Shown: piece by piece, positions 128 to 5,322 of the stretch | Layout of the letters: each line of letters begins with the position of its first letter | Numbering within the stretch: position 1 is the first letter of the stretch | Origin: a virus | Virus record (IMG/VR): IMGVR_UViG_3300040801_001938 | Location: 1 to 23,812 of that record | Length of the DNA: 23,812 nucleotides | Direction: 5' to 3' (one strand) | Program-made: the position numbers and the translations under genes | The notes under the pieces: model-generated | Database searches by the model: none | What the model saw: the letters and a program-made list of their open reading frames with translations, nothing else | Told to the model about the DNA's origin: nothing

Positions 128-547
128 TCACCCGGTCCCGTGTCCGTTGACCTCTCGGTCAGCTGGCACGTATATGGGGGGATTTTTGTCTTCCATGTCC
201 GCTGCAATGATCGCGTTTCGTGCGGCCTCTTGCATCGTGTCACCGTAACCAGTGGCAGTACAGTCGCCACTGTGCGTGATAACACGTGCGATCCAACGAC
301 AACCCGGACAATCGTAATAGTCCTGTTCGAGGATAACCCGAACTGGCTCAGTGATCTCGTCCGAAAACATCACGGACACCGGCATGGTAGTTATACCGAC
401 AAATGCGTCGTGTAGTATCTGCCTGATTTCTTGTCTACCAATGTCGTTCTGTAGCAAGTCGGTCAGGCCCTCGACCGAAAACTCCTCCGACTGAATGCCG
501 GTGCTGCGGTCGGCCTGGGTCTGGATTATGGCCTTGATTTCGTTCAC
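128..547 (-). CDS. Hypothetical protein with a CxxC motif, downstream of helicase
   Basis: This 139-residue protein starts at a GTG whose bases overlap the TGA stop of the helicase gene (GTGA), which implies translational coupling. The N-terminal half is acidic and helical. Around residues 78-84 lies YDCPGC, a single CxxC that could bind metal if paired with another chain. The C-terminal stretch GYGDTMQEAARNAI resembles the GxGxTxxEAxxNA pattern seen in small alpha-beta domains such as HicB-like folds, but the resemblance is too short to assign a family. It is probably a helicase-associated early protein by context. No function can be given from the sequence alone. Confidence 0.75.
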   Translation of the reverse strand: MNEIKAIIQTQADRSTGIQSEEFSVEGLTDLLQNDIGRQEIRQILHDAFVGITTMPVSVMFSDEITEPVRVILEQDYYDCPGCRWIARVITHSGDCTATGYGDTMQEAARNAIIAADMEDKNPPIYVPADREVNGHGTG

Positions 548-2016
548 TTGGATTCTCTCCCTGCCAGTTCGTCTCTGGCGATTAGGTTCTCGTCGACATA
601 CTCCGCGACGTCTCCTTTCTTGCGTATCGCGTCCGTGATCATGCGGTCATACTTGTTGTTCATGACCAGATCGACGTACGTCACTTTGTTGGTTTGTCCT
701 TTGCGGTGCGCCCGGTCCTCGGACTGCTTGCGGTCTTGGTAGCTGAAGCTGTTCGAATAGTAGATCACGAGCGTGGCTGCCGTCCACGTCTGGCCCATGC
801 CGCCCACGGCTTGATTCGACACCATAAAACGGCGTTCCCCGCTCTGGAATTGGGCCGCCTCGGTGTCCCTAGTTTTCACGTTCATGCCTGAAAACTCAGC
901 CACGGACTCGGCCCCATACATGGCGGCCAGCCGCTCCTTCATTTGTTGGATTTCGGGCTGGAACCGACACCATATAATGACTTGCGTTTTGGAATCGATC
1001 TCGGCCAAGATGTCGAGCGTTTCGTCCATCTTGGGGTTTTTGCCCTCGACCGGCTTGGTCTTGTATTGTCGCTCCGGTTTGTTGGTGCGCGGGTTGATGG
1101 TCACGGCGTCTTCGTACGGGAAATTACCACCGATGATCTGCTGCAGGCGGGTCAGGCGCTCCAGGATCGTCTCGGCTTCGATCACGTCCTGCCCCTGCTC
1201 AGACATGAAACTCTCAAGCAGCGAATCGATGTGCTCGGTTTGCTGCTTGGTCGGTTCCACGTAACGCACCGTGTACACCTTGTCCGGGAGATCGAGCACG
1301 TCCTCCTTTTTCACGACGTGCACGTACGGGGCGACTTTGGTCAGGAGGTCCTGGCTGTCGCGATAACCGATGATCGATCGATTCTCGAAACCACCCATGA
1401 TACAGTATCGATTGCGAAACACGTAGTAGGATCGGCAGCGCAGAATCTTGGGATTCAGGAACTGGAACTGAGCGAACAGGTCCTCGATTCCTTGGGTGAT
1501 GGGCGTTCCTGTCATGATCATGCGAAACAAGGAAGCGCGGGCGATCTCGACTGCACGTTTGGTCCGGGCCGATTGTGGATTTTTGAGTTTAGATGACTCG
1601 TCGGCCACCACCATCGTTCTATGGCAACCGGCGAATTCGCGAACAAAATCGGCAGCTGTGCCTTGACTGAGCGCCTCGATTCCGGCCACCAATACCTTCA
1701 TGCCGTTTATGGTCTTAGCCATCAGTCGGATGGCGTCTTTTTTACCGGCAGCGCCCGAATTCACGACGGCTATCTCGTAATCTACGGGACACCAACTCTC
1801 GAACTCCTCCACCCACACGTTTTTAATCGGGGTGGGGCAAAGCACGACGAGCGCTTGGATTTGGTCCTTAAGGAATCGGGCCGACGCCAGATTAATGGCT
1901 GTAAACGTCTTGCCCGTACCCATGTCGTGAAACAGTGCGTATTCGGTGCGTTTCCACGCTCGCTTGAGCGCTTCGCGCTGGTGGGACATGGGGTCGGATT
2001 TGAATGGGTGCGTCAT
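544..2016 (-). CDS. SNF2-family (superfamily 2) DNA helicase/ATPase
   Basis: This is a two-lobed ATP-dependent DNA translocase of 490 residues, near the usual size of compact phage SNF2 proteins. Visible motifs in order are HQREAL near residue 12, Walker A DMGTGKT at 31-37, the DExx box ADESSKLKN at about 138-146, motif III TGTPI at 169-173, and motif V/VI including QSEDRAHRKGQ at 431-441. All core catalytic residues look intact. It probably acts in phage DNA replication, recombination or host takeover. The ATG at 2016 has no Shine-Dalgarno sequence and abuts a -10-like TATAGT, so an in-frame ATG at 1989 is an alternative start that keeps every motif. The gene is followed by two coupled small genes. 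Confidence 0.95.
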   Translation of the reverse strand: MTHPFKSDPMSHQREALKRAWKRTEYALFHDMGTGKTFTAINLASARFLKDQIQALVVLCPTPIKNVWVEEFESWCPVDYEIAVVNSGAAGKKDAIRLMAKTINGMKVLVAGIEALSQGTAADFVREFAGCHRTMVVADESSKLKNPQSARTKRAVEIARASLFRMIMTGTPITQGIEDLFAQFQFLNPKILRCRSYYVFRNRYCIMGGFENRSIIGYRDSQDLLTKVAPYVHVVKKEDVLDLPDKVYTVRYVEPTKQQTEHIDSLLESFMSEQGQDVIEAETILERLTRLQQIIGGNFPYEDAVTINPRTNKPERQYKTKPVEGKNPKMDETLDILAEIDSKTQVIIWCRFQPEIQQMKERLAAMYGAESVAEFSGMNVKTRDTEAAQFQSGERRFMVSNQAVGGMGQTWTAATLVIYYSNSFSYQDRKQSEDRAHRKGQTNKVTYVDLVMNNKYDRMITDAIRKKGDVAEYVDENLIARDELAGRESK

Positions 2017-2129: not shown

Positions 2130-2522
2130 TCAGGCGGCTTTCTTCTCCTCGGCCTTGGCGGCCTTGGCGGCCTTTTCGGCGCGAGCAGCGACCGCTTCCT
2201 GGATCGGGGCGGCTTCGGTATCCAGGAAATCGTAACCGCTGCCTTCCTCGGCCTTCTCCATCTTGGCGACCGCGCCACGGATGCGATTTCCGAGGTTCAT
2301 GCGCTGCATTCCCTCGTTCAGGTGTTCGTACTTCTCCTTGAGCGCCTTCTGCGTCTCGCCGAGCGCCTTGGCTGCCAGACGGTAGGTTTCGTCCAGGGTC
2401 GCCCCATTGAGGGCCTGAGCCACGGCGTCGCCGTTGTTCATCGAAGCACCGCCGCTGGCGGCCTTCGTCTTCTGATACTTGGTCGTGTCGGGTGACACGG
2501 TGGGCTTGCTTTCTTCGCTCAT
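2130..2522 (-). CDS. Paralogous early protein A with LNEG-RMN-GN-RGAV module and Ala/Lys tail
   Basis: This 130-residue protein starts at the ATG at 2522 behind GAGGT, inside a longer reading frame that lacks a ribosome site. Residues around 24-87 align without gaps to the gene at 4774-5322, with 28 of 64 positions identical by hand count. The shared core is LNEGMQRMNLGNRIRGAV. The C-terminus is an Ala/Lys/Glu repeat tail (AEKAAKAAKAEEKKAA) that may be a flexible or nucleic-acid-contacting extension. It is the last gene of its unit and is followed by a strong hairpin. I do not know the function. An abundant DNA- or RNA-binding protein is one possibility, and that is inference only. Confidence 0.85.
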   Translation of the reverse strand: MSEESKPTVSPDTTKYQKTKAASGGASMNNGDAVAQALNGATLDETYRLAAKALGETQKALKEKYEHLNEGMQRMNLGNRIRGAVAKMEKAEEGSGYDFLDTEAAPIQEAVAARAEKAAKAAKAEEKKAA

Positions 2523-2552
2523 TTCATTTACCTCGTGTAGTGTGTGAAGGAA

Positions 2553-2824: not shown

Positions 2825-2983
2825 CTATCCCCCCAATGCACGACGGATGGAAACTGCCAACGGCTTCGGCCTCGGCGGGGTCCTCACCTTCTTCATGGTG
2901 TCGCGGAAAACGATATCAGCGGCCCTCTTCCTGGCCCTGCGGCTCTTCTTGCGCGGGGCACTATTCGGTCCTGTCTTGCTCAT
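2825..2983 (-). CDS. Very basic 52-residue protein
   Basis: An ATG at 2983 opens a 52-codon frame ending in TAG at 2825-2827. It overlaps the stop of the DUF3102-like gene as ATGA and has a strong ribosome site (GAGGAGGAG) 7-8 bases upstream, so I regard it as real despite its size. The product is dominated by Lys and Arg (for example RKKSRRARKRAA) with Pro near the C-terminus (RTPPRPKP). It contains no acidic cluster and no cysteine. Such a composition suggests nucleic-acid binding or an RNA-binding antiterminator-like role, but this is inference and no family is recognised. Confidence 0.7.
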   Translation of the reverse strand: MSKTGPNSAPRKKSRRARKRAADIVFRDTMKKVRTPPRPKPLAVSIRRALGG

Positions 2984-3804
2984 GATTGCTCCTCCTCTTG
3001 TTCCCAGAACTTTTCGATGTTGCCAGCGAATTCTTCAGCGGCGTCGGCTTGATCCTGATACATATCTTCGATGCAGGACTCGTAAATCGTAGTCCAGACG
3101 TCTGTGTTGATCTTCCTGCCCAACAACTCGGGGCCGAAGCCAAAAACCAAACACGACTGTGACCAAAGATCCATGTCCTCGAAATCGCCAGCCAGAACCG
3201 AATCGAGACGATCCGAGGCAGACTGCTTCAGTGTGCGGGCTATACGAGCATCGAGGGCATACACCCCGCCGCTCCCACTGGACGACGTTGGCGTGGGGTC
3301 GGGTCGAGGGGCCTGATGTACCGGGTCGGGGTCCGAAGCAGAAGGAGAGGCCTCCGGTTCAGAAACTCGCTTCTCCTCGACGACCTCCTTCACCTGCTCG
3401 GGGTCGACTTCCTGGCCCTGATTCAGCCGGTCGATGATGTCGTCCTTCAGGTCCGACTGCGCCGACATAAACTCGCGGGCTGCGGTCCAGCCCACGGCCT
3501 CCAGCAACTCAGGGGCGTTCTTGAAGTGCTTGGCCATATTCATGTAGGTGTTGGCGGTGCGGGGGGCGATATCAGGCAAAACCTCGGCCCTCCAGCGCCC
3601 GAACTCGCGGTCGCCCTTGAACAGGGTCCGGGCATCGATCAACAGGGAGCCGATGCGCAACCGAGCACGCGCCACGGTCATCACGGTTTCCTGTACCACC
3701 TTATTGATATCATCCCCGATCTTCTGCAGGGAACTCAAACCAGCGGAATCGATGTTGGCAAACCACTTGTCGTCCATCGTCGTCATTTCTGTGTTATCAT
3801 CCAC
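2980..3804 (-). CDS. DUF3102-like phage protein
   Basis: The product is 274 residues when started at the GTG at 3804, which has AAGGAG 7 bases upstream and overlaps the preceding gene by 8 bases. The longer open frame upstream of 3804 lies inside that preceding gene and lacks a ribosome site. Residues about 35-90 read IGSLLIDARTLFKGDREFG, then W, then APRTANTYMNMA. This is the pattern I associate with the DUF3102 domain of phages and plasmids, a helical region with a possible helix-turn-helix. A Pro/Ser-rich linker (about 150-185) leads to an acidic C-terminal domain ending in Glu repeats. Involvement in DNA binding or regulation is inferred, not shown. Confidence 0.8.
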   Translation of the reverse strand: MDDNTEMTTMDDKWFANIDSAGLSSLQKIGDDINKVVQETVMTVARARLRIGSLLIDARTLFKGDREFGRWRAEVLPDIAPRTANTYMNMAKHFKNAPELLEAVGWTAAREFMSAQSDLKDDIIDRLNQGQEVDPEQVKEVVEEKRVSEPEASPSASDPDPVHQAPRPDPTPTSSSGSGGVYALDARIARTLKQSASDRLDSVLAGDFEDMDLWSQSCLVFGFGPELLGRKINTDVWTTIYESCIEDMYQDQADAAEEFAGNIEKFWEQEEEQS

Positions 3805-3966: not shown

Positions 3967-4134
3967 CTAATAAATAGAGGTCGGCAGCATCGGATCGAAG
4001 CGCACCGACTTGTGATGAAACTCGATCCACTCTCGCCACTCGTCGGCGAACGAGCGCCGCGACAACCAAGTCGAGGGATCGAGTACCGGCGTAACCATGG
4101 GGTCGGGGTAGAGGTCCTGGGGGAGGTCGTTCAT
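3967..4134 (-). CDS. 55-residue Pro/Trp-rich micro-protein
   Basis: An ATG at 4134 preceded by AGGAG opens a 55-codon frame ending with TAG at 3967-3969. The N-terminal third is acidic and Pro-rich (MNDLPQDLYPDPM), and the middle carries a Trp-rich helix (SFADEWREWIEFHH). It is the first gene after the promoter at 4164-4192, and its stop overlaps the ribosome site of the following gene. Both facts support it as a real gene. The function is unknown. An early host-modulating peptide is a guess based only on size and position. Confidence 0.7.
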   Translation of the reverse strand: MNDLPQDLYPDPMVTPVLDPSTWLSRRSFADEWREWIEFHHKSVRFDPMLPTSIY

Positions 4135-4163: not shown

Positions 4164-4192
4164 ATTAAAGCACAGCGGGACCGGGAGAACAA
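4164..4192 (-). promoter_or_regulatory. Leftward sigma70-type promoter (TTGTTC-17-TTTAAT)
   Basis: On the minus strand, TTGTTC (4187-4192) and TTTAAT (4164-4169) are 17 bp apart, about 30 bases before the first gene of the unit. The decamer GTGCTTTAAT recurs exactly at the promoter near 6413. It sits directly downstream, in the leftward sense, of the large palindrome. Confidence 0.6.
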
Positions 4193-4200
4193 GCGCTCTA

Positions 4201-4552
4201 CCTGCAAAGCGGGCCTGTCGGCCCCGTCGGACCGAGAATGGCCGAAAATATAGACATATAGGCAGGAATATAGGCAGGCTAGAGGCCCCGTCACGACGGG
4301 CCAGAACGGCTCTCTGCCTACTGTCTATATATCTCGACGACCTTTTTTGGAAGAATAGTACCTCCTGTTATATATACTTCATAACTACTCCTACTATTCG
4401 CGCTCTACGATGTGGGCGGCAGATATAGACAGTAGGCAGATAGGACCCCGGACCCCGTACGACGCGGGCCTCGGCTGCCTATATTCTGGCCTGGGCGTCT
4501 ATAGACATCCCGGACTCTCGGCCCTGTGGGGACCGACAAGAGGGCAAGCAGG
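4201..4552. repeat. Giant imperfect palindrome (~350 bp) centred at 4376-4377
   Basis: Eight pairs of complementary blocks share one centre. They are 4201-4205/4548-4552, 4216-4221/4533-4538, 4232-4237/4516-4521, 4249-4255/4497-4503, 4266-4277/4475-4486 (12 bp, GAATATAGGCAG), 4313-4330/4423-4440 (18 bp, exact), 4353-4360/4392-4399 and 4367-4371/4381-4385. The stretches between blocks keep almost equal lengths on both sides, with one or two single-base gaps, so the whole element reads as one inverted duplication with diverged arms. The centre is AT-rich, unlike its surroundings. It lies in the longest stretch without a gene. Possible roles are a replication origin, a structured RNA or a recombination-derived inverted duplication. 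Confidence 0.85.
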
Positions 4553-4588
4553 GGGGGAGTATATACCTATTGTTGCACCCCCCTTGAG

Positions 4589-4622: not shown

Positions 4623-4731
4623 TCTCCTTTCCTCTTCCTTGGGCTTGGACTGGCGTATGGGGGCGAATGTACCGGGTGGGGCGGCAGATGCCAAGGGAAG
4701 GGAACGGAGAGGCCCGGAGGCCGTATAAAGT

Positions 4732-4753
4732 GAGGCCCCCTTGCGGGGGCCTC
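4732..4753 (-). terminator. Terminator of the unit ending with paralog B
   Basis: GAGGCCCCC (4732-4740) and GGGGGCCTC (4745-4753) form a perfect 9-bp stem. Read on the minus strand, the loop is GCAA, a stable GNRA tetraloop, and the stem is followed by ACTTTATAC. It lies 20 bases after the stop of the gene at 4774-5322. The T run is short, but position and stem strength make it a likely leftward terminator. Confidence 0.75.
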
Positions 4754-4773: not shown

Positions 4774-5322
4774 TTATGAGGCTTCGGGGACTTTGAACCG
4801 GCTGGGGTTGCCGTCGGACCCGAGGACGACCACGAGTTCGCCGCGCTTGACCGCGCCGCGCAGCTTGTTACCGGCGTTCATGCGGGTTGCGCCTTCGTTC
4901 AGGCCAGCGTAACGCTGCATGTGCGTTTGACCTTCCATCGGCACGAATTCATCGGCGAGTTCGCAGACCTCTTTCGCGCTCTTGCCTTCGAGCAGGACCG
5001 CGACGTCGTCGCCGTTGTAGTAGGACTTGTTGCCGCTGGCCGAAACGGAGACCACGTAGCGCTCTTCGCGTGCCTTCTTCAGCTTCTCGCTCATGTTCTT
5101 CGGGCTGGCCTCGGACTCGAAGTCTTCGGCGATGATGGCGAACTGGTCGAATGCGGTCTTGACGCGCGACTTCTGGTCGGCGGTGAAACGCGACTTCGTG
5201 TTCAGGAATTCCATGGCTTCGCGGGCAGCTGCGATCGTCTCGTCCGTGATGTTGCCGGGGTGCGTGACGAATTCGATGGCTTCGATTGCGCTGTTGATGG
5301 TCATGTTGGTCGTGTTGGTCAT
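4774..5322 (-). CDS. Paralogous early protein B with LNEG-RMN-GN-RGAV module
   Basis: This 182-residue protein starts at the ATG at 5322 behind AGGAG; the longer open frame has no better start. The N-terminal ~85 residues are helical (SAIEAIEF and EAMEFLNTKSRF regions). Residues about 95-160 align without gaps to the protein at 2130-2522, including SGNKSYYNGDDVA, LADEFV and LNEGATRMNAGNKLRGAV. The C-terminus is a short beta-like region (ELVVVLGSDG) instead of the Ala/Lys tail of its paralog. It is a single-gene unit with its own promoter (5377-5406) and terminator (4732-4753), which suggests strong independent expression. The function is unknown. Nucleic-acid binding is a guess from the basic conserved motif. 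Confidence 0.9.
   Translation of the reverse strand: MTNTTNMTINSAIEAIEFVTHPGNITDETIAAAREAMEFLNTKSRFTADQKSRVKTAFDQFAIIAEDFESEASPKNMSEKLKKAREERYVVSVSASGNKSYYNGDDVAVLLEGKSAKEVCELADEFVPMEGQTHMQRYAGLNEGATRMNAGNKLRGAVKRGELVVVLGSDGNPSRFKVPEAS

Follow-up and report, generated by a model that had tools for sequence, protein, structure and literature searches.

The window, by which we mean the whole 23.8-kb fragment of a virus record analyzed here, carries leftward genes between positions 128 and 7267 and rightward genes, including terminase and capsid, from 7807. A long palindrome lies within the leftward early operon, in an intergenic stretch flanked by a 55-aa ORF and gene 'a' (Table 1); no credible gene was found between 4134 and 4774. 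Gene 'a' and its paralogue form a PHROG 8941 pair that most relatives keep together. AlphaFold models the second protein of this pair (4774–5322) with confidence (pLDDT 87), and a comparison of the PHROG 8941 and DUF3102-like proteins with PDB structures gave no significant match. The window contains no Prim-Pol/SF3 replication gene; polymerase and primase, if present, lie outside the fragment.

Table 1 Features of the palindrome and of the surrounding early operon (window coordinates).
Feature	Position	Strand	Basis or remark
Whole nested palindrome, origin candidate	4201–4552		Fold and palindrome scans
Left arm	4216–4360		Gapped arm alignment
Loop, AT-rich (65% AT), center 4376	4361–4391		Arm alignment, composition
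Right arm	4392–4538		Gapped arm alignment
Perfect 18-bp stem block	4313–4330		Partner 4423–4440
Perfect 18-bp stem block	4423–4440		Partner 4313–4330
Conserved dyad, left copy GAGGCCCCGTCACGACGGGCC	4282–4302	+	Best PWM match of the window, 98 bp left of center
Conserved dyad, right copy GAGGCCCGCGTCGTACGGGGTCC	4450–4472	-	Second and third best PWM matches, 99 bp right of center
TATAGRCA(G) repeats, iteron-like	4249–4277	+	Copies at 4249, 4257 and 4269
Near-center TATATATCTCGACGACCTTTTTTGG	4326–4350	+	Arm comparison
Weak promoter-like TTGTTC-17-TTTAAT, TGTGC before -10	4164–4192	-	Read from the sequence
Flanking gene 'a', PHROG 8941 family	4774–5322	-	Paralogue of 2130–2531(-)
55-aa ORF, other flank	3967–4134	-	Function unassigned
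DUF3102-like gene, same operon	2980–3786	-	One relative hits DUF3102
SNF2-type helicase, marker of the shared early module	544–2016	-	Homology searches

The palindrome is imperfect and nested, spans ~340 bp, and aligns 100 Watson-Crick pairs over 150 columns (gapped local alignment of the arms about one center), with the arms separated by a 31-nt loop. It scores 42, against 17 for the runner-up within the window, a maximum of 23 (mean 17.7) in 40 dinucleotide shuffles of the whole window, and a maximum of 19 in 200 shuffles of the region only. The preliminary description had reported two exact block pairs, which we recovered base for base (18/18 for 4313–4330 with 4423–4440, and 12/12 for 4266–4277 with 4475–4486), and had put their common center at 4376–4377, within one position of that given by the arm alignment. 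Folding against shuffled controls, a check proposed there, placed region 4190–4560 6.5–7 SD below the shuffles on both strands (z = -7.2 for RNA of the plus strand, -6.75 for RNA of the minus strand, and -6.5 for DNA); no shuffle folds as well as the native sequence, and the palindrome is the top 400/420-nt window by energy in every scan. The center is AT-rich in a GC-rich phage, as described, with 65% AT in the loop and 58% in the central 128 bp compared to 44% overall. The regulatory elements said to border it fared less well: the supposed terminator, a hairpin at ~4735–4752(-), lacks a real T-run, and both promoter-like sequences, at 4666–4694(-) and 4164–4192(-), are weak (9/12). For the palindrome stretch, we found no tRNA, no Rfam model match at gathering score, and no DNA similarity match among phages. 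The palindrome is real and non-coding.

A helicase search retrieved viral contigs up to 53% identical, and the relatives of the early region (n = 22) include Vibrio phages VP2 and K300, Alteromonas phage ZP6, and IMG/VR contigs. By local tblastn, many share an early module of conserved gene order (helicase, both PHROG 8941 genes, and the DUF3102-like gene), and the contigs that carry it cluster with Vibrio phages VP2, phiVC8, and K300 and Alteromonas phage ZP6. Most relatives have a family A polymerase and a gene of the PurZ type, with PF00709 matched in 14 of 20 contigs and the gene annotated in ZP6 and K300. The primase of ZP6 and VP2 consists of Prim-Pol, PriCT_2, and DUF5906 (SF3) domains by Pfam, and an AEP primase with an SF3 protein gives tblastn matches in most other relatives. 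TerL of the window best matches Rhizobium phage RHph_X3_2 (48%) and IMG/VR contigs (70%). Because its terminase and capsid do not match those of the VP2/ZP6 group, the window genome is, judging from sequence comparison, a mosaic, with an early module from that group and TerL and capsid from a different lineage. A search for proviruses in bacterial genomes using the helicase returned nothing.

We ran a single palindrome scan on 24 genomes. In 16 of the 22 relatives, the highest-scoring palindrome of the whole genome is no more than 1.5 kb from the PHROG 8941 gene 'a', where 11% would be expected (binomial p = 2.5e-11; Fisher combined p ~1.6e-16 with the window included). Clear scores, which shuffles do not reach, were obtained for G003 (29), G011 (28), VP2 (26), G001 (24), K300 (23), ZP6 (22), G012 (22), G009 (21), and G005 (20), with the caveat that the palindromes of G004 and G010–G012 lie where the DNA is very rich in GC, and composition may account for part of them. 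Some of the 16 are only marginal, namely G007 (18), G015 (17), G017 (17), G006 (16), and G019 (15), the K294 palindrome is weak, and the scan found no clear palindrome in seven relatives (G002, G006, G014, G016, G018, G019, and G020). Hypothetical ORFs over the palindrome of the VP2 group are annotated inconsistently, on either strand (L227 and L264–L272, Vibrio phage records); these are probably not genes, since the length mostly differs between strains by a number of bases not divisible by three.

The arm sequences are entirely different between phages, yet within a phage the left arm pairs with the right. Self-pairing scores are 22–42 in most phages compared versus 8–21 across unrelated phages, the exceptions being K294 (13) and G017 (17). 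An earlier remark that pairing had been partly maintained in the window thus extends to other phages, whose arms pair with their own partners and not with those of others. K300 and K294, which are ~82% identical in the aligned core, differ in a right-arm repeat (GATGAC to GAGTGAC) that, as read from the alignment, changed in parallel with its left-arm counterpart (GTCATC to GTCACTC), although the K294 palindrome is weak. Within the VP2-like Vibrio phages, the sequences are too conserved for covariation to be informative. What is kept is the pairing and not the arm sequence, and it may be kept by selection or by arm-to-arm copying.

Comparison of the arms exposed a common dyad of the form GAGSCCCCGTC-NN-GACGSGG. 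Position weight matrices (PWMs) were built leave-one-out, from the other phages with the phage under test excluded; their matches are somewhat inflated by GC-rich local composition. In the window, the two matches in the right copy represent both strands of the dyad. The opposite-strand dyads sit at -98/+99 about the center in the window, -84/+82 in ZP6, and -86/+90 in G003. PWM matches are top-ranked in VP2, phiVC8, K300, and G017. One dyad copy lies in the loop in VP2 and phiVC8 and one in an arm in K300, G017, and G001, where the site was chosen by eye and is ranked low by the leave-one-out matrix. G014 and G018 carry the dyad near gene 'a', though without a large palindrome. An exact-motif scan of viral contigs with TATAGACAGTAGGCAG gave only two matches, both unrelated, and a scan with the full dyad pattern gave one contig, also unrelated. 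The iteron-like TATAGRCA repeat occurs seven times within the palindrome and nowhere else in the window, with inverted or further copies at 4329(-), 4424(+), 4483(-), and 4500(+) in addition to those in Table 1. Near the center, TATCTC followed by a T-tract is found in the window, G001, G005, and VP2. Separately, positions 1–1000 of L006 contain many GGCAAGAATCGTGCC/GGCAAGAGCCGTGCCA-type palindromic repeats, located in a large non-coding stretch beside the hairpin.

Several explanations could account for a long palindrome at this place. Transcription of the stretch into a long hairpin RNA would fit the very stable RNA fold predicted for both strands, and the promoter-like site at 4666–4694(-) would transcribe it. 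A selected RNA should, however, show an excess of G-U pairs on the transcribed strand, and among the non-Watson-Crick positions of 14 palindromes, 45 would read as G-U on one strand and 44 on the opposite one, with 181 remaining, which is the 1:1:4 ratio expected at random. This count argues for a structure that acts as DNA, not RNA. Together with the lack of an Rfam match and the varying orientation of the palindrome and its distance to genes among phages, it makes an RNA function very improbable. Quasipalindromes are known to be homogenized by template switching, and the element might be a relic without selective value, an inverted duplication whose symmetry persists through switching between the arms as the DNA is copied. 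The simple repeats in the arms of several phages and the parallel repeat change in K300/K294 are in keeping with such copying; a palindrome that recurs at a single genomic place in divergent genera, with a dyad conserved at symmetric positions, speaks against it, and we consider a relic improbable.

The main rival is control of the early promoter, given a strong sigma-70 site (10–12/12, 17-bp spacer) aimed at the helicase operon 180–344 bp from the palindrome center in seven relatives (G001, G003, ZP6, VP2, phiVC8, K300, and G017). The repeats and dyads, which resemble protein sites, would then be operator or activator sites, and the palindrome would pair sites for dimeric regulators looping over the promoter. 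Yet operators should stay conserved within an operon family, whereas the arms turn over fully as the ~150-column pairing persists; the window's own site at that place is weak; and it would leave unexplained why the palindromes of L282 and BPP-1 abut replication genes. Promoter control is therefore unlikely in our estimate, though it deserves more weight than any other alternative. A packaging (cos/pac), recombination, or structure-specific nuclease site draws on VP2 and ZP6, where the palindrome is close to the terminase genes and 0.6–0.7 kb short of where the record ends. For phiVC8 at least, the record begins at an arbitrary point (PMC4802629); the window palindrome sits within the early operon, with ~3.4 kb between it and the terminase small subunit; and the L282 and BPP-1 palindromes adjoin replication genes. 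This is the least probable of the explanations.

Among the three functions first offered (replication origin, structured RNA, and nuclease site), the origin is best supported and the structured RNA is disfavored. We lean toward the palindrome being a DNA-level replication origin because divergent phages share such an element at the head of the replication operon, because its arms carry paired inverted copies of a conserved dyad, and because the phages' type of replication protein is known or proposed to use stem-loop origins. What stands at the head of the early/replication operon is a fast-diverging imperfect palindrome, a likely, if unproven, start site for copying the phage genome. In the mechanism we envisage, both opposed dyads would be bound by the Prim-Pol/SF3 replication protein or by another protein acting with it, for instance the PHROG 8941 product of the flanking gene, and the symmetry would let two complexes load facing outward. 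The complexes could then melt the AT-rich center or extrude the arms as hairpins, and one leading strand would be primed on each template strand, resulting in bidirectional priming. The GC-skew minimum of the window, at 3804, is close to the palindrome, away from the gene-direction switch (~7.5 kb), which lends slight support to an origin; skew is -0.028 in the left flank and +0.051 in the right, both coded leftward. In G001 and G005, the minimum is 1.9 kb from the palindrome and nearer the gene-direction switch. As an origin marker, GC skew was weakly useful, being confounded with gene direction in most relatives.

We found no mapped origin for phiVC8 and its kin, the phages in which 2-aminoadenine takes the place of adenine. 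Repeats and promoters are listed in the phiVC8 paper without this palindrome, and the ZP6 paper makes no mention of palindromes, hairpins, or a replication origin. A broader and more tentative proposal, which we regard as possible, is that the phiVC8/VP2/ZP6-like phages (relatives with purZ, the 2-aminoadenine gene) share an origin family, in which opposed initiator/primase dyads would stand at mirror positions in a long palindrome, the geometry being inherited and the arm sequence replaced wholesale. A 340-bp candidate whose conserved dyad sits at fixed, symmetric positions is directly testable. If true, the stem-loop origins of AEP/SF3 replicons, so far shown for one archaeal plasmid and proposed for one phage, would extend to a broad group of phages, which would illustrate clearly how an origin can keep its shape while its sequence changes.

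The preliminary description knew of no named element that matches, which mostly stands, except that the stem-loop origins of the pRN1/BIP-1 type are a close named precedent (PMC4234260). Plasmid pRN1, whose replication protein combines an AEP primase and an SF3 helicase, needs a 100-nt stem-loop conserved in structure and not in sequence, and a similar origin has been proposed for Bordetella phage BIP-1, whose protein consists of Prim-Pol, PriCT_2, and SF3 (PMC4234260). Like these, the palindrome is a large non-coding DNA stem-loop, stabler than chance, whose pairing is conserved though its sequence is not (16 of 22 relatives), and the replication protein of ZP6 and VP2 has the domain composition of that of BIP-1, a gene that the window fragment does not include. 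As a candidate origin, it differs in its length (~340 bp versus ~100) and in carrying paired inverted copies of a conserved dyad. In contrast to pRN1, BIP-1, and L282, the palindrome of the VP2/ZP6 group does not adjoin the replication gene and lies ~11–13 kb from the primase gene in ZP6 and VP2.

Our scan recovers the stem-loop (score 34) in BPP-1, which is near-identical to BIP-1. The strongest palindrome of BPP-1 (L278; score 37, 33229–33558) lies in the annotated VR2 repeat of bbp36 and not at the proposed origin. In L282, whose TerL is 70% identical to that of the window, a 255-bp palindrome (2880–3134; score 30, DNA fold z = -4.7) starts right at the stop codon of an SF3 replication protein (851 aa), has GGTAAG repeats in both arms, and is a likely second stem-loop origin. 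The best palindrome of Psp6 is just after the primase gene. A palindrome origin could not be generalized to all phages with SF3 replication proteins: among the outside-group phages checked, only BPP-1, L282, and Psp6 (3/8) have the top palindrome just 3' of the gene, the best palindrome of the five others, with related proteins, does not lie just after the replication gene, and the same scan gave no clear palindrome outlier in AMA2 and AN14.

Iteron origins, such as those of phages P4 and lambda, place a repeated short motif beside AT-rich DNA at the replication operon. The seven TATAGRCA copies conform to this arrangement, unlike it in that they occur in both orientations, pair together, and differ in sequence from phage to phage. 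The oriV of RSF1010/IncQ has two primase sites, ssiA and ssiB, one per strand (PMC4434180, PMC4234260). The dyads are likewise two short hairpin-forming elements on opposite strands, in phages whose relatives have an AEP-type primase, and their mirrored positions in the window, ZP6, and G003 agree with the one-per-strand inverted layout of RSF1010, with a putative role in priming; unlike in oriV, they lie inside one long palindrome. The origin we propose would thereby combine the stem-loop of pRN1 with opposed priming sites like ssiA and ssiB.
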